A stretch of DNA of 64,000 nt from Tessaracoccus sp. MC1865 (GTDB lineage: Bacteria > Actinomycetota > Actinomycetes > Propionibacteriales > Propionibacteriaceae), in contig NZ_CP072596.1 in assembly GCF_017815535.1 (NCBI RefSeq), positions 2,821,614 to 2,885,613 on the forward strand, written 5' to 3'. Positions 28,988 through 35,850 of this stretch are shown here, piece by piece. Each line of letters starts with the position of its first letter. Position 1 is the first letter of the stretch. The position numbers were made by a program, and so were the translations under genes. A model generated the notes under the pieces. That model had not been told where the DNA came from, did not search any database, and saw nothing but the letters and a program-made list of their open reading frames with translations.

Positions 28988-29038
28988 CGGTGTAGACCCG
29001 CCCCATTCCAACAAACGAATCGCGATAAGGTGGTCCCC

Positions 29039-31096
29039 GTGACCAAAAGTGTTTATATTGCCTCGTCGGAGCGGCTGGTCAGTAAGTCGTCCATCGCCCT
29101 GGGCGTGATCGACCTGTTCGCTCGCCAGGTGCGCTCGGTGGGCGTCTTCCGCCCGCTCGTGCACTCCCTCGACGCTGACGCAGTGACCCAGGCCCTCCTT
29201 TCGCCGAAGGGCGTCAACCAGTCGCTGGAGTCCGCCGTGGGCGTGACCTACGCCGATTACGCCGCGGATCCGGACCAGGCGATCGACACCATCGTCGCGA
29301 AGTACAGCGAGCTGTCGGAGAACCGCGACGCCGTGGTCATCGTCGGTTCGGACTACGACGACTTCGAGTCGGCCTTGGAGCTGGACCACAACGCCGTCAT
29401 CGCCGCCAACCTCAACTCGCCCGTGATATTCGTGGCACGCGCCAAGGACCGCTCGGCCGAGCAGGTCCAGCGGATGACCGAGTCCGCCGTCGATGCGTTC
29501 GAGTCGCGGCACAACACCGTCATCGCGCTGATCGCGACGCATGCCGACGAGGGCCGGGAGGCCGAGGTCGCCGATGCGCTGCACAGGGTCCGTGAAGCCG
29601 TGGTCGCCGTGCTGCCGGACAGCCCCGTGCTGCGCGCCCCCTCCGTCGGCGCCCAGTTCGCCGCCGTCGGCGCCACCCAGTGGCTGGGGCAGAGCGAGTT
29701 CCTGGCGCACGAGTCGCTGCACACCATCGTGGGCGGCATGACGCTGCCCAACCTGCTGCCCTACCTGAAGCGTGAATCCACCGTCATCATGCCGGCGGAC
29801 CGCCTCGACCTGCTCCCCGGCCTCGTGATGGCGCACCGCTCGCCGCACTACGGCCCGCTGTCGGCGATGGTGCTGACCGGCGGTTTCGAGATCCCGGAAT
29901 CGGTGTCGAAGCTGTTCACGGATTCGACGATCGACCTGCCCATCGCGGTCACCAAGGGCGACACCTTCTCCACCGCCGTGAAGCTGCAGGGCGTGCGCGG
30001 CACGTCCACCAGCTCCCCCCGCAAGATCGAGGTGTCGCGGGCCCTGTTCTCGCAGTACGTCGACGAGAGTGCGCTGCTGGAGAAGATCGACCTCACCACC
30101 ACGGACATCCGCACGCCCACCATGTTCGAGTTCCAGATCATGCAGATGGCCCGGGCCAACAAGCAGCGCATCGTGCTGCCGGAGGCCACGGACGACCGCA
30201 TCCTCGAGGCCGCGGACATCGTGCTGCAGCGCTCCGTCGCAGACATCATCCTGCTGGGCGACGTGGCGCGCATCAGCCAGCGCGCCTCGGAGCTGGGCCT
30301 CAACCTCTCCGACGCCACCGTCGTCAACCCGGAGGACCCGGAGCTGGTCGAGCAGTTCGCGGCGGAATACGCCAGGCTGCGCGCCCACAAGGGCGTCACC
30401 ATCGAGCAGGCCCGCCAGCGGATCACGGACCCGTCCTACTTCGCCACCATGATGGTCCACCTGGACATGGCCGACGGCATGGTGTCGGGCGCGATCAACA
30501 CCACCGCCGCGACCATCCGGCCGTCGCTGGAGTTCATCAAGACCAAGCCTGAGGTCTCCGTCGTGTCGGGTTCGTTCCTGATGTGCATGAGCAACCGCGT
30601 GTTGGTCTACGCCGACTGCGCCGTCAACCCGGATCCCACCCCCGAGCAGCTGGCGGACATCGCCATCACCTCGGCGGCCACCGCCGCGAACTTCGGCATC
30701 GAGCCCCGCGTGGCCCTGCTGTCGTACTCGACGGGCGACTCGGGTTCCGGCGCAGACGTCGACAAGGTGCGCGAGGCCACCCGCCTGGTGCGCGAGCGCG
30801 CGCCGCAGCTGAAGGTCGAGGGCCCCATCCAGTTCGACGCCGCCGTCGACGAGGTGGTCGCCGCCAAGAAGATGCCCAACTCGGAGGTCGCGGGGCGTGC
30901 CACCGTGTTCATCTTCCCGGACCTCAACACGGGCAACAACACCTACAAGGCCGTGCAGCGCACCTCCGGCGCCATCGCCATCGGCCCCGTGCTGCAGGGC
31001 CTCCGCAAGCCGGTCAACGACCTGTCGCGCGGCGCCCTCGTGGACGACATCGTGTCGACCATCACCATCACCGCCATCCAGGCCCAGACCAACTGA
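29039..31096 (+). CDS. pta: Phosphate acetyltransferase
   Basis: Long-form Pta (685 residues) that converts acetyl-CoA plus phosphate to acetyl phosphate. It has an N-terminal BioD-like domain (1-230), a central DRTGG domain (about 230-340), and a C-terminal PTA_PTB catalytic domain (ADGMVSGAINTTAATIRPSLEFIKT, SYSTGDSGSGADVDKV, GRATVFIFPDLNTGN). The N-terminal P-loop is degenerate: SERLVSKSS replaces the usual GxxxxGKS/T, so nucleotide sensing may be lost. GTG at 29039 is chosen because AAGG lies 8 bases upstream. Forms an operon with ackA. Confidence 0.94.
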   Translation: MTKSVYIASSERLVSKSSIALGVIDLFARQVRSVGVFRPLVHSLDADAVTQALLSPKGVNQSLESAVGVTYADYAADPDQAIDTIVAKYSELSENRDAVVIVGSDYDDFESALELDHNAVIAANLNSPVIFVARAKDRSAEQVQRMTESAVDAFESRHNTVIALIATHADEGREAEVADALHRVREAVVAVLPDSPVLRAPSVGAQFAAVGATQWLGQSEFLAHESLHTIVGGMTLPNLLPYLKRESTVIMPADRLDLLPGLVMAHRSPHYGPLSAMVLTGGFEIPESVSKLFTDSTIDLPIAVTKGDTFSTAVKLQGVRGTSTSSPRKIEVSRALFSQYVDESALLEKIDLTTTDIRTPTMFEFQIMQMARANKQRIVLPEATDDRILEAADIVLQRSVADIILLGDVARISQRASELGLNLSDATVVNPEDPELVEQFAAEYARLRAHKGVTIEQARQRITDPSYFATMMVHLDMADGMVSGAINTTAATIRPSLEFIKTKPEVSVVSGSFLMCMSNRVLVYADCAVNPDPTPEQLADIAITSAATAANFGIEPRVALLSYSTGDSGSGADVDKVREATRLVRERAPQLKVEGPIQFDAAVDEVVAAKKMPNSEVAGRATVFIFPDLNTGNNTYKAVQRTSGAIAIGPVLQGLRKPVNDLSRGALVDDIVSTITITAIQAQTN

Positions 31097-31105
31097 GCCA
31101 GGAAC

Positions 31106-31138
31106 CGACGCGGCAGGGTCCCCCACCCTGCCGCGTCG
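31106..31138 (+). terminator. Perfect 14-bp hairpin between pta and ackA
   Basis: CGACGCGGCAGGGT pairs perfectly with ACCCTGCCGCGTCG around a CCCCC loop, 9 bases after the pta stop. No T tract follows, so it may be a partial terminator, an RNA-processing or an mRNA-stabilising element that sets the pta:ackA ratio. Confidence 0.55.
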
Positions 31139-31169
31139 TTCATCACCACCACCCAATAAAGGAAGCGCC

Positions 31170-32354
31170 ATGAGCCAGCCGATCCTCCTGCTCAACTGCG
31201 GATCGTCGTCGATCAAGTACCAGCTACTCGATCCGGGGGTGGGCTCGCCGCAGGCGGTCGGCATCGTGCAGCGCATCGGTCTCGAGGTCGGCACCATCAC
31301 CCACGAGGTGGGCGATGAGGAGTACCACGAGGCCCGCCCGTTCGCGGACCACACCGAGGCAGTGGCCGCCGTCGTGAAGATGTTCACGGACCACGGGCCT
31401 AGCCTCGACGACGTGGTGGCCGTGGGTCACCGCACGGTGCACGGTGGCGCCACCTTCATCGAGTCGGTGCTGATCGACGACAGCGTCATCGACAAGCTCG
31501 TGGAGCTGTCGGACCTGGCGCCGCTGCACAACCCGCCCGGCATCGCCGGCATCAACGCCGCCAAGGAGGTCCTGCCGGACGTCCCGCACGTGGCCATCTT
31601 CGACACGGCGTTCTTCTCCACCCTCCCGGCCGAGGCCTACACCTACGCCATCGACTACGACACCGCGCAGCGCCTGGGCGTGCGCCGCTACGGCTTCCAC
31701 GGCACCTCGCACAGCTACGTGTCGAAGAAGGCCGCGGAGTTCCTGGGTAAGCCCATCGAAGACCTCAAGACCATCGTCTGCCACCTCGGCAACGGCGCCT
31801 CGATCTCCGCCGTCGACGGCGGGGTCGCCATCGACACCTCCATGGGCCTCACCCCGCTGGAGGGCCTCGTCATGGGCACCCGTTCCGGCGACGTCGACCC
31901 CGGTCTGCACAAGTACCTGGTGCGCAGCGGCATGACCATCGACGAGGTGGACAACCTGCTCAACAAGAAGTCCGGCATGGGCGGCCTCTGCGGGTTCACC
32001 GACATGCGCGACGTGCAGACGGCCATCCTGGAGGGCGACGAGCGCGCGCAGCTGGCGCTCGACGTCTATGTGCACCGGCTACTGAAGTACATCGGCTCCT
32101 ACATCGCCGTGCTGGGCGGGGTCGACGCCCTGGTGTTCACCGCCGGTGTCGGCGAGAACGCGGCGCACGTGCGTCGCCCCGTGATCGAGCGCCTGAAGAA
32201 CCTGGGCTTCGAACTCGACCAGGCCGCCAACGACGCCCGGTCGAAGGAGCCGCGTGAGATCTCAACGCCGGAGTCCAGGGTCCGCGTGCTGGTGATCCCG
32301 ACCAACGAGGAACTGGCCATGGCGCAGGAGACCCTCGAGGTCATCTCCCGCTGA
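31170..32354 (+). CDS. ackA: Acetate kinase
   Basis: Makes ATP and acetate from acetyl phosphate and ADP; 394 residues. LLLNCGSSSIKYQLL is the N-terminal ASKHA phosphate loop, GFHGTSHSYVSKKA the catalytic-histidine motif, HLGNGASISAV phosphate 2, and PLEGLVMGTRSGDVDP the substrate arginine segment. AAAGGA precedes the ATG at 31170. It lies 73 bases after pta, giving the standard acetate overflow/ATP-yield module, reversible for acetate use. Confidence 0.96.
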   Translation: MSQPILLLNCGSSSIKYQLLDPGVGSPQAVGIVQRIGLEVGTITHEVGDEEYHEARPFADHTEAVAAVVKMFTDHGPSLDDVVAVGHRTVHGGATFIESVLIDDSVIDKLVELSDLAPLHNPPGIAGINAAKEVLPDVPHVAIFDTAFFSTLPAEAYTYAIDYDTAQRLGVRRYGFHGTSHSYVSKKAAEFLGKPIEDLKTIVCHLGNGASISAVDGGVAIDTSMGLTPLEGLVMGTRSGDVDPGLHKYLVRSGMTIDEVDNLLNKKSGMGGLCGFTDMRDVQTAILEGDERAQLALDVYVHRLLKYIGSYIAVLGGVDALVFTAGVGENAAHVRRPVIERLKNLGFELDQAANDARSKEPREISTPESRVRVLVIPTNEELAMAQETLEVISR

Positions 32355-32429: not shown

Positions 32430-32546
32430 CATTTCCAGCCCCCTTTTTGTAGCTCTCCGACAACCGCGGGCCCCGCCGTTGTGGGATTACCACAAACCCC
32501 GCTCAGCAACGCCCGACACGCTTCGCGAGCCCCACCCCCAGTGGCG

Positions 32547-32559: not shown

Positions 32560-33333
32560 ATGGCTTCAGCTTTGATCACGGGTGGCACTTCCGGCATCGG
32601 TCTCGCGTTCGCGCAGGAGTTGGCCAGGCGTGGCACCAACCTGATCTTGGTGGCCCGCGACACTGCCCGCCTCGAGGCCGTCGCGGCCGAGTTGAACGGC
32701 CAGTTCGGCGTCGAGGTCGAGACGATTCAGGCGGATCTGTCAGAGCGGGCCGACATGCTGCGCATCGGTGAGCGGCTCGAGGACCTCAGCCGCCCCGTCG
32801 ACATCCTGATCAACAACGCCGGGTTCGGCCTCCACTCCACGTCGCTGAACCCCGACGAGGTGGAACTCAACACCAACGCCATCGAGGTCATGTGCGTGGC
32901 GGTGTTCATCCTCAGCGGCTCCGCCGCCCGCGCCATGAAGACCCGCGGGCACGGCCAGATCATCACGGTGGCGTCCTCGTCGTCGTCGATCTTCTCCGGC
33001 AACTACTCCGCCATCAAGGCCTGGGCGCGCACGTTCTCGAACTCCCTGGCCCTGGAGCTGAGCGGCACCGGCGTCACCGCCACCGCGCTGCTCCCCGGCT
33101 GGGTCAAGACGGAGTTCCACCAGCGGGCAGGCATCAACGCTTCCAAGCTGCCAGGCATCGTGTGGATCGACGCGGACAAGCTCGTGCGCACCGCCCTCGA
33201 CGACTCCGCCAAGGGCCGCTTCGAGTCGGTGCCGGACTGGAAGTGGAAGACCGCCATGTTCCTCGCGGATCACGGTCCGCGCTCCTTCACCCGCTGGTTC
33301 TCGAAGAAGCTGTCCGCCTCGAGGAAGCACTGA
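32560..33333 (+). CDS. Short-chain dehydrogenase/reductase, candidate acyl/alkyl-DHAP reductase
   Basis: Classical SDR of the DltE/COG0300 type, 257 residues. NADP(H)-binding TGGTSGIG at 7-14, NNAG at 85-88, catalytic Ser run at 139-143, Tyr149 and Lys153 (YSAIK). A hydrophobic-basic C-terminus (KWKTAMFLADHG..KKLSASRKH) could touch the membrane. One base separates its stop from the acyltransferase GTG, and the alkyl-DHAP-synthase-like gene follows, so a role in reducing a 1-acyl/alkyl-dihydroxyacetone phosphate or a fatty acyl substrate is inferred. The fold alone does not fix the substrate. Confidence 0.8.
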   Translation: MASALITGGTSGIGLAFAQELARRGTNLILVARDTARLEAVAAELNGQFGVEVETIQADLSERADMLRIGERLEDLSRPVDILINNAGFGLHSTSLNPDEVELNTNAIEVMCVAVFILSGSAARAMKTRGHGQIITVASSSSSIFSGNYSAIKAWARTFSNSLALELSGTGVTATALLPGWVKTEFHQRAGINASKLPGIVWIDADKLVRTALDDSAKGRFESVPDWKWKTAMFLADHGPRSFTRWFSKKLSASRKH

Positions 33334-33334
33334 C

Positions 33335-34141
33335 GTGGCCGCCGAACTCGAATCGGGCAACTCGCGCTACACCTCCAAGGTGCAGGCGACGACGCGCCAG
33401 ACCGCCCAGATGCTGGTGCTCAAGCCCGCGCTGATGCGGCTGCTGCGGGTCCATGTGCACGGCGCCAGCAACCTCGACACCCTCGACGGCGCCTTCATCG
33501 TGTTCGGCAACCACTCCTCCCACCTCGACGCCCCACTCATCCTGGCCTCGCTGCCCACCCGCCTCTCGAAGCGCGTCGCCACCGGGGCGGCGGGCGACTT
33601 CTTCTTCGGCAACTGGTTCAAGTCCATGTCGATGGCGCTGTTCATGAACGGCTTCCCGATCGACCGCGGCAAGGGCGGCAAGGGCAGGCGCGGCATGTCC
33701 GGCCAGCTGTTGTCTGACGGCGTCCCGTTGCTGCTGTTTCCCGAGGGCACGCGTTCCCGCACCGGCGCGATGGGCAAGTACGTCCCCGGCGTCGCGTCGC
33801 TGTGCATCTCGCGCGGCGTGCCGGCGCTGCCGGTGGCCCTCGTCGGCGCCTTCGAGGCCTGGCCGTCGAAGCAGAAGCACCTCCCCAAGGGCCGGCCCGA
33901 GGTGCACGTCGTGTTCGGACGGCCCATGACGCCGCGGCCCGGCGAGATCGCCCACGAATTCAACGAGCGGATGCGCCGCCAGGTGCTGGAGCTCCATGAC
34001 ACGACCGCGCGCGCTTACGGTAAGAAGACGCTCGCGGAGTATGAGCGTAATGTGGCGCTCGAACGCGCACAGGAGACGGAAATCGCGACTCTGGCTGAAC
34101 ATGCCCGGGAGCAGGCCGACAAGCAGGAGGATCCTCAATGA
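33335..34141 (+). CDS. PlsC-type (lyso)phospholipid/DHAP acyltransferase
   Basis: Glycerolipid acyltransferase of 268 residues. The catalytic HX4D motif is His60-Asp65 in GNHSSHLDAP, and motif III FPEGTRSRTG is at 135-144 with Glu137 binding the phosphate. It transfers an acyl chain from acyl-CoA or acyl-ACP to a glycerol- or dihydroxyacetone-phosphate acceptor. GTG start, one base after the SDR; its TGA overlaps the ATG of the next gene (ATGA). In this operon the plausible acceptor is dihydroxyacetone phosphate, which would supply the alkyl-DHAP-synthase-like enzyme; lysophosphatidate is the conventional alternative. Confidence 0.88.
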   Translation: MAAELESGNSRYTSKVQATTRQTAQMLVLKPALMRLLRVHVHGASNLDTLDGAFIVFGNHSSHLDAPLILASLPTRLSKRVATGAAGDFFFGNWFKSMSMALFMNGFPIDRGKGGKGRRGMSGQLLSDGVPLLLFPEGTRSRTGAMGKYVPGVASLCISRGVPALPVALVGAFEAWPSKQKHLPKGRPEVHVVFGRPMTPRPGEIAHEFNERMRRQVLELHDTTARAYGKKTLAEYERNVALERAQETEIATLAEHAREQADKQEDPQ

Positions 34142-35850
34142 TCGAGGGCGTCAAGCAGCAGAAGTGGTGGGGCTGGGGCGAAGAAGGCCATAGCTTCGGC
34201 TACAAGGACAAGCCGAAGTTCGCACCCTTCGTCATGAATAGGGTCGGCGTCGACATCGACGAACCCGTCAAACCCGTCCCGCCCTTCTCCTCCCTCGAGG
34301 TGCCGGCCTCCCAGCTCTCAGAGTCGCTGCGCACGAGCCTCGTCGCCATCCTGGGCGAGAAGTACGTGCAGACCGACGACGAGACCCGCGTCGTCCACGC
34401 GTTCGGCAAGGGTGTGCGTGACCTGGTGCGCGTGCGCCGCGGCCAGCTCGGCCGCGTACCCGACGTGGTGCTCTACCCCGGCACCCAGCGTGAGGTCGAA
34501 CGACTCGTGGACGCCGTCGTCGACGCCGACGCCGTGCTGATCCCGTTCGGCGGCGGCTCCAACATCGTGGCCGCCCTGGAGGCCATGCCCGGTGAGTCGC
34601 GGCAGGTCGTCTCGGTCAACCTCGGCCGGATGAACAAGGTGCTGGAGATCGACGAGGTCTCGGGCCTTGCGCACATCCAGGCCGGCGTCTTCGGCCCCGA
34701 CATGGAGGACCAGCTCCAGGCTCGCGGCTGGACGCTGGGGCACCACCCCGATTCGTTCGTGTGGTCCACGCTCGGCGGGTGGATCGCCACCCGCTCGTCG
34801 GGCATGCAGTCCGACAAGTACGGCGACATCGCCGACATCACCCGCGGCCTCACCATGGTGATGCCCGGCCAGGTGCTGACGCTGCGCCCCCTCCCGTCCA
34901 CCTCGTCCGGCCCGTCCGTGCGCGAGATGGTGCTGGGCTCCGAGGGTCGCCTGGGCGTCATCACGTCCGCGTGGGTCAACGTGCACCGCGTGCCGGAGGT
35001 GCGCGAGATCCAGGCGTACTTCTACGCCACCTACGCAGACGGCCTCAAGGCCTGCCGCGAGATCGTCGAATCCGACGCGGAGGTCATGATGGCCCGCGTC
35101 TCGGATGCTCTCGAAACCGAATACATCATGGCCAACGGCAAGAAGGGCAGCAAGGTCTCGTCGCTGATCAGCAAGGGCATCAAGAAGCTGATGGAACAGA
35201 AGGGCTGGGACCTCAGCCAGATCGCCATGAGCTTCGTAGGCTTCGAGGGCTCGGCCAGCCACGTGCGCTACCTGAAGGGCATCGTCGGAAAGATCGTGCG
35301 CAACAACGGCGGCATGGGCGTCGGCAAGGGCCCGGGCGCGCTGTACGACCAGAAGAAGTACGACACCCCCTACCTGCGCGACTTCATGCTGGACCACGGC
35401 CTGGTCTGCGACGTCTCCGAGACGACGACCCCCTGGGCCTTCGCGGAGCAGATCCACACCAACGCCACGGACGCCTTCTACCAGGTGATGGACGACCTGG
35501 GCCTGCGGGGCGTCGTGTTCTGCCACCTCAGCCACTCGTACCACTCGGGCGCGTGCCAGTACTTCACCTTCGCCATCAACGACGACTCCGAGAGCAATCT
35601 CGTGACCTACGACCTGGCCAAGCGCGCCATCCAGCAGGCGTTCATGGACAACCATGGCACGGTGTCGCACCACCACGGCGTCGGTGAGGAGCACAGCCCC
35701 TGGATGGAGCAGGACATCTCCCCCGCGGGCGTGTTCATCCAGAGCAAGCTGTTCGACGGCGTGGATCCGGGCCGCAACTTCAACCCGGGCAAGATCGTCC
35801 ACGAGGGCGCGCCGGGCATTTCGACGAACTCAGCAGACCACGTCGGCTGA
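34138..35850 (+). CDS. Alkyldihydroxyacetonephosphate synthase-like FAD enzyme
   Basis: FAD-binding oxidase/transferase (PCMH type), 570 residues. It follows the alkylglycerone-phosphate synthase plan: N-terminal KWWGWGEEG motif at 9-17, FAD pyrophosphate loop PFGGGSNIV at 136-144, STLGGWIATRSSGMQSDKYGD near 210-230, GSEGRLGVIT at 267-276, Tyr468 in SHSYHSGACQYF, and the His triplet at 511-513 (SHHHGVGEEH) that is essential in animal AGPS. AGPS swaps the acyl chain of acyl-DHAP for a fatty alcohol, making the ether bond. All key positions I can see are kept, so ether-lipid synthesis is likely; D-lactate/glycolate dehydrogenases are related but lack the WGWG and HHH features together. Confidence 0.85.
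   Translation: MIEGVKQQKWWGWGEEGHSFGYKDKPKFAPFVMNRVGVDIDEPVKPVPPFSSLEVPASQLSESLRTSLVAILGEKYVQTDDETRVVHAFGKGVRDLVRVRRGQLGRVPDVVLYPGTQREVERLVDAVVDADAVLIPFGGGSNIVAALEAMPGESRQVVSVNLGRMNKVLEIDEVSGLAHIQAGVFGPDMEDQLQARGWTLGHHPDSFVWSTLGGWIATRSSGMQSDKYGDIADITRGLTMVMPGQVLTLRPLPSTSSGPSVREMVLGSEGRLGVITSAWVNVHRVPEVREIQAYFYATYADGLKACREIVESDAEVMMARVSDALETEYIMANGKKGSKVSSLISKGIKKLMEQKGWDLSQIAMSFVGFEGSASHVRYLKGIVGKIVRNNGGMGVGKGPGALYDQKKYDTPYLRDFMLDHGLVCDVSETTTPWAFAEQIHTNATDAFYQVMDDLGLRGVVFCHLSHSYHSGACQYFTFAINDDSESNLVTYDLAKRAIQQAFMDNHGTVSHHHGVGEEHSPWMEQDISPAGVFIQSKLFDGVDPGRNFNPGKIVHEGAPGISTNSADHVG

Follow-up and report, generated by a model that had tools for sequence, protein, structure and literature searches.

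Tessaracoccus sp. MC1865 carries, within the 64,000-nucleotide stretch of chromosome analyzed here (the window), three adjoining genes that encode a short-chain dehydrogenase/reductase (SDR), a PlsC-type acyltransferase, and a flavoprotein resembling AGPS, the alkyl-dihydroxyacetone phosphate (alkyl-DHAP) synthase of animal ether lipid synthesis. Do these genes serve ether lipid synthesis by the DHAP route and, if so, which ether lipids would the strain contain? We conclude, with a probability of roughly 80%, that the operon encodes the enzymes acting on the glycerol backbone in an alkyl ether lipid pathway of DHAP type, a reading that independent genomic evidence strongly supports. The first-pass annotation, made from the sequence alone, had proposed an ether lipid operon matching the animal plasmalogen pathway. 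Its AGPS-type DHAP route is supported, as are conservation of the operon and the presence of a fatty acyl-CoA reductase (FAR), which lies near AGPS in many relatives; a GNPAT-like acyltransferase and plasmalogens are not supported for this strain. The three genes and their joins, a 1-base gap between the first two and an ATGA overlap between the last two, are as that annotation described them:

32560-33333, + strand: SDR oxidoreductase, ATG start at 32560; proposed alkyl/acyl-DHAP reductase (PexRAP-like step)
33335-34141, + strand: PlsC-type acyltransferase, GTG start; proposed DHAP or 1-alkyl-glycerol-3-phosphate acyltransferase
34138-35850, + strand: AGPS-family flavoprotein; proposed alkyl-DHAP synthase

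A mechanically generated list of open reading frames also offers a longer SDR frame that starts with TTG at 32479.

Identity of the flavoprotein

Domain searches bore out all three gene calls. The SDR matched PF00106 (adh_short, E 1.3e-38) and has a Tyr-x-x-x-Lys motif, YSAIK, in its translation; PF01553 was the sole Pfam match of the acyltransferase, whose translation contains NHSSHLD and FPEGTR motifs; and the third protein combines FAD_binding_4 with FAD-oxidase_C. When the third protein was compared with solved structures by phmmer, it matched AGPS of Dictyostelium (2uuu, E 4.8e-112) and of guinea pig (4bby, E 3.2e-78), while the best lactate dehydrogenase in the same search reached 5.7e-17; AGPS structures led by more than 60 orders of magnitude in E-value. 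A Foldseek search with its AlphaFold model (mean pLDDT 84.2) returned AGPS chains in all of rows 1-37, with lactate dehydrogenases following from 1.7e-26.

Alignment placed guinea-pig Arg419, Arg515, Tyr578, and His615-617 at R320, R414, Y475, and H511-513 of the window protein. Tyr578 and Arg419 are the residues replaced in the AGPS mutants of PDB entries 4bca (Tyr578Phe) and 4bc7 (Arg419His), and Arg515 and the His615-617 triplet are residues that we take to be catalytic in AGPS. The tyrosine that had been assigned to an SHSYxxGxCxYF motif is correctly positioned, with the catalytic residue corrected from Y468 of SHSY to Y475, the Y of GACQYF. In phylogenetic trees, the window protein falls in a single group (clade I, support 100/99), with Tessaracoccus lapidicaptus as its nearest row, separate from a second actinobacterial group, a proteobacterial group, and a group from Verrucomicrobia, Acidobacteria, and Planctomycetes. 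Equivalents of R320, R414, Y475, and H511-513 are kept in 28 of the 28 clade I rows aligned. They are missing from two flavoproteins of the same genome (L001 and L002) that have a lactate-dehydrogenase-type C-terminal domain. By sequence, predicted fold, and catalytic residues, the third operon protein is thus a member of the AGPS family and not a lactate dehydrogenase; a lactate or glycolate dehydrogenase identity, which the first-pass annotation had named among the outcomes that would overturn its proposal, is disfavored by the same structure matches, fold, and residues.

Conservation of the operon and its fatty acyl-CoA reductase

AGPS was matched in 35 of 35 relatives of the same genus, in one of them (G008) in several broken pieces; these lie at C1:1697454-1699110 in an assembly that is 60% complete. 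In the family as a whole, a match at E 1e-40 came from 81 of the 147 genomes, spread over 20 of the 29 genera. The three-gene order, whose retention in the family had been suggested as a check, was found in 46 of 49 genus and family loci (L004-L052, the window's own included), and the other three begin at contig ends. Given this conservation in relatives, the arrangement is not due to chance. A search of the class gave 29 further loci (L053-L081, one from the same family), with the full trio in 19, AGPS and PlsC in one, and AGPS alone in nine; eight of these nine come from one family (f19), where some of the loci are short.

A fatty acyl-CoA reductase, which had likewise been suggested as something to look for elsewhere in the genome, is present. 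This 782-residue protein (FAR-HAD) matches NAD_binding_4 (E 3e-44) and Sterile (E 2.3e-9), both above the Pfam cut-offs, and carries a C-terminal HAD domain (E 3.2e-31); its closest solved chain is the fatty acyl-CoA reductase 7eoz (E 2.7e-52). Its gene overlaps the end of another that, by eye, we take to be hisA. Among the 147 family genomes, 76 have both AGPS and FAR-HAD, five AGPS only (G117, G153, G161, G170, and G192), one FAR-HAD only (G061), and 65 neither; with the weak AGPS matches of G153 and G161 (27-28%) recounted as lacking AGPS, the figures become 76, 3, 1, and 67. Among 296 genomes of the class, FAR-HAD was found in 31 of the 34 with a clade I AGPS. A profile search for wax synthase (PF03007), an alternative sink for the alcohol, gave no match, and its control was silent too.

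Physical linkage was examined by scanning named genomes with the clade I alignment, which gave at least 80 loci, with further loci existing; gene presence was scored by thresholds within the fetched flanks of AGPS. FAR-HAD lies near AGPS in 44 of the 80 named loci among the matches listed, accompanied by SDR and PlsC in 40 (Jiangella, Georgenia, Microbacterium, Salinibacterium, Plantibacter, Kocuria, Brachybacterium, and Brevibacterium provide examples) and by SDR without PlsC in four. SDR and PlsC without FAR occur in 16 of these 80 loci, and 20 fall short of all these sets, some of them with too little flank and five of Verrucomicrobia type with an SDR scoring below threshold. One locus, from Frondihabitans sucicola (L194), has FAR, SDR, and PlsC and an AGPS match split over two overlapping frames, possibly by sequencing error.

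A second lineage of AGPS points the same way. One genus of the same family (g15; L101, L102, and L103) has an AGPS that is 43-45% identical to the guinea-pig enzyme and groups with it at 100/100 in trees without the long outgroup and at 99/98 with it, the latter subject to a long-branch warning. FAR-HAD lies in the same fetched stretch as this AGPS in two of the three AGPS genomes (L101 and L102, not L103). The animal-like AGPS looks as if it stands in for the clade I protein, and the FAR-HAD partner shared by the two is an independent hint that they do the same job.

The resulting scheme would run as follows. FAR-HAD, encoded elsewhere on the chromosome, would supply a long-chain alcohol, while the operon PlsC or another acyltransferase would form 1-acyl-DHAP. 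The AGPS-family flavoprotein would exchange the acyl group for the alcohol to give 1-O-alkyl-DHAP, whose ketone the SDR would reduce to 1-O-alkyl-glycerol-3-phosphate. A PlsC would then acylate the sn-2 position, and the lipid would join normal phospholipid synthesis. Each reaction, the division of labor between PlsC proteins, and the product are what we infer from the observed gene identities, residues, fold, and conservation and from the linkage and co-occurrence of AGPS with FAR-HAD.

Several observations weigh against this scheme. The catalytic residues are also kept by AGPS-like groups with other neighbors (six rows of the second actinobacterial group and two proteobacterial rows), so that they mark the family and not the reaction. 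Some clade I AGPS genes, in Frankia, Kineococcus, and Thermoleophilaceae, have no adjoining trio; in the host genome itself, FAR-HAD and the operon are about 1.3 Mb apart, and two family genomes (G117 and G192) hold the trio without FAR-HAD. Conversely, FAR-HAD occurs in 27 of 122 class genomes with only another AGPS group and in 7 of 140 without AGPS at E 1e-60, and is thus not exclusive to clade I. Shared ancestry also inflates the co-occurrence counts of AGPS and FAR-HAD.

The host genome is a single contig of 3.04 Mb. Upstream of the trio in the window lies a pta-ackA pair (29030-32354) that ends 205 bases ahead of the SDR gene, and a convergent PAC2 gene lies downstream. The pta-ackA pair also directly precedes the trio in genus g28 (L105 and L117).

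Product and division of labor

AGPS chemistry gives saturated alkyl ethers, and vinyl ethers need an extra step. The first-pass annotation had linked the operon to plasmalogens, the vinyl ether lipids, and some published lipid data on other actinobacteria speak for that link. In the available portion of the description of the aerobe Kineococcus rubinsiae B12, gas chromatography-mass spectrometry found 2.9% anteiso-C15:0 dimethyl acetal, a peak that the MIDI system had called C14:0 2OH; the authors first found the acetal surprising and took it to indicate plasmalogens (PMC7472656). A clade I AGPS is present in the B12 record (L146); its fetched flanks contain neither FAR nor PlsC, and no SDR on the same strand. 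In Subtercola, of the Microbacteriaceae, single dimethyl acetals reach up to 17% in the figures available from PMC5945732; no Subtercola genome was among the loci analyzed. These reports support the presence of ether lipids, though as vinyl ethers, among bacteria with a clade I AGPS and their relatives, and the B12 acetals lend indirect help to a plasmalogen reading that is live for relatives. The MIDI assignment also implies that "14:0 2-OH" in actinobacterial descriptions may hide plasmalogens; PMC5945732 gives 14:0 2-OH, and no acetals, for Frondihabitans.

For the window strain, the searches point elsewhere. The PlsA domain PF09989 (DUF2229) is absent from the host genome and was found by the same search in 80 of the 147 family genomes; PF01869 gave only a partial match of 21 bits, below its cut-off; and PF10520, the PEDS1/CarF domain, gave no match in a search to which 14 control genomes were silent as well. 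Together these results predict saturated alkyl (plasmanyl) and not plasmenyl lipids for the strain, and the proposed plasmalogen link is not supported for it. The family genomes divide into 24 with both AGPS and PF09989, 57 with AGPS only, 56 with PF09989 only, and 10 with neither: AGPS and PlsA-type genes are mostly alternatives within the Propionibacteriaceae, where the PlsA label rests on PF09989, which may also occur outside PlsA, and on frames of mostly about 1,400-1,550 residues.

A candidate for the vinyl ether step in relatives is offered by two unannotated proteins of ferritin-like type, which occur as a pair flanking FAR-HAD in half of the FAR-bearing clusters, for example:

L183, 43-843 and 3109-3861, - strand: ferritin-like pair flanking FAR-HAD
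L101, 5841-6671 and 8998-9828, - strand: ferritin-like pair flanking FAR-HAD
L102, 2394-3290, among others: ferritin-like protein flanking FAR-HAD

In one protein of the pair, the di-iron ligands are intact and the predicted fold resembles that of acyl-ACP desaturases; its partner has lost ligands. It is possible, and we put it forward tentatively, that aerobic Actinobacteria have a full plasmalogen pathway of their own, in which FAR-HAD, PlsC, AGPS, and SDR would be joined by this pair, acting as a soluble, O2-dependent desaturase that makes the vinyl ether and is unrelated to PEDS1/CarF and to PlsA/PlsR, with the window's genus having an alkyl-only form. If true, this would explain the acetals of aerobic Subtercola, and also those of Kineococcus should its genome encode the pair at another site. 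For the window's genus, the search covered only the stretches fetched around FAR and around the trio, and these did not contain the desaturase-like pair; this and the domain searches above make it unlikely that the trio serves plasmalogen synthesis in the window strain itself.

Which step the acyltransferase performs bears on a second alternative. GNPAT is a protein of GPAT/DHAPAT type with its own C-terminal domain. Pfam and solved-structure searches found no GNPAT-specific domain in the operon acyltransferase, whose only solved relative at E 0.001 is the PlsC 5kym, so that the GNPAT-like role first proposed gives way to a PlsC-like protein that may act at either the DHAP or the sn-2 step. 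The host genome encodes two further PF01553 proteins that could supply sn-2 acylation, which would leave the operon PlsC for DHAP. The SDR's top NCBIfam match, mycolate reductase, scored 144.7 bits, below the cut-off of 380. One can imagine a pathway without a DHAP acyltransferase, in which PlsC acts at sn-2 and a bidirectional SDR first oxidizes 1-acyl-glycerol-3-phosphate to 1-acyl-DHAP and later reduces alkyl-DHAP. The PlsC-like character of the acyltransferase suits this arrangement, as does genus g18, which keeps FAR-SDR-AGPS and lacks PlsC. Three loci of the Verrucomicrobia group (L191, L195, and L196), however, have the order PlsC-AGPS-SDR-PlsC (by Pfam for L191), and a second acyltransferase after the SDR fits two acylations; moreover, the reduction direction is normally favored. 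Given the g18 and Verrucomicrobia-group arrangements, the operon PlsC may act at either step, and we regard the bidirectional SDR as improbable.

Less probable still is a reading of the third protein as a hydroxy-acid dehydrogenase, or as another flavin oxidase of the vanillyl-alcohol-oxidase superfamily, with neighbors engaged in ordinary lipid chemistry. In its favor, the FAD half of the protein is matched by entries for GlcD and D-lactate dehydrogenase, and AGPS-family members that adjoin CoA-transferase and LysR genes on proteobacterial plasmids keep the same catalytic residues, but the lead of AGPS structures, the residues missing from the genome's own lactate-dehydrogenase-type paralogues, and the linkage of AGPS to FAR-HAD all argue against it.

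Comparison with known ether lipid systems

The DHAP-type alkyl ether lipid pathway proposed here predicts ether lipids, with named genes, in many ordinary genera of Actinobacteria, making it a little-recognized pathway that is directly testable. It offers an explanation for the puzzling dimethyl acetals published for aerobic actinobacteria, separates the members of one family, for the most part, into those that use AGPS and those that use PlsA, and indicates a candidate new desaturase. In a search of the open-licence literature, screened mostly from the list of hits, we recognized no paper on an actinobacterial SDR-PlsC-AGPS operon or FAR-HAD cluster. A Black Sea metagenome study has reported AGPS homologues from across the bacterial phyla, among them Actinobacteria (PMC11868695).

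The DHAP route is that of the animal peroxisomal pathway of FAR1, GNPAT, AGPS, and DHRS7B (PexRAP), with which the window strain shares an AGPS homologue keeping all tested residues, a FAR homologue, an SDR, and an acyltransferase. It differs in that the acyltransferase is of PlsC type, the reductase is a FAR-HAD fusion, the genes form an operon or cluster, and PEDS1 gave no match, against a silent control. The anaerobic PlsA/PlsR plasmalogen system also forms ether lipids and is stated, in the excerpt available, to be present in Propionibacteriales (PMC9702350), whereas the host genome has no PlsA domain. In Ca. Promineifilum, AGPS lies near the fatty-alcohol-forming reductase FcrA and an ether lipid role has been proposed; FcrA is HMG-CoA-reductase-like, unlike FAR-HAD, and the sections available describe no SDR-PlsC-AGPS trio (PMC11948995).

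A further bacterial parallel comes from Myxococcus xanthus. As far as the available text of PMC9131029 goes, a set of MXAN_1676 (AGPS), MXAN_1675 (FAR and acyltransferase), and MXAN_1674 (epimerase) was proposed there, disruption of MXAN_1676 had a minor effect, and ElbD was dominant. The AGPS trees described above were built without MXAN_1676. Both MXAN_1676-1674 and elbA-E resemble the window's system in combining AGPS, an acyltransferase, a FAR-like domain, and a NAD-dependent reductase, and elb includes a HAD protein, ElbB. The first-pass annotation had suggested that the operon would be a distinct system; judged by that account, its chemistry is not new but a variant of the route proposed for MXAN_1676-1674 (PMC9131029), and what does differ is the gene arrangement, with a FAR-HAD, a separate PlsC, and an SDR in place of a FAR-acyltransferase fusion and an epimerase-type reductase.

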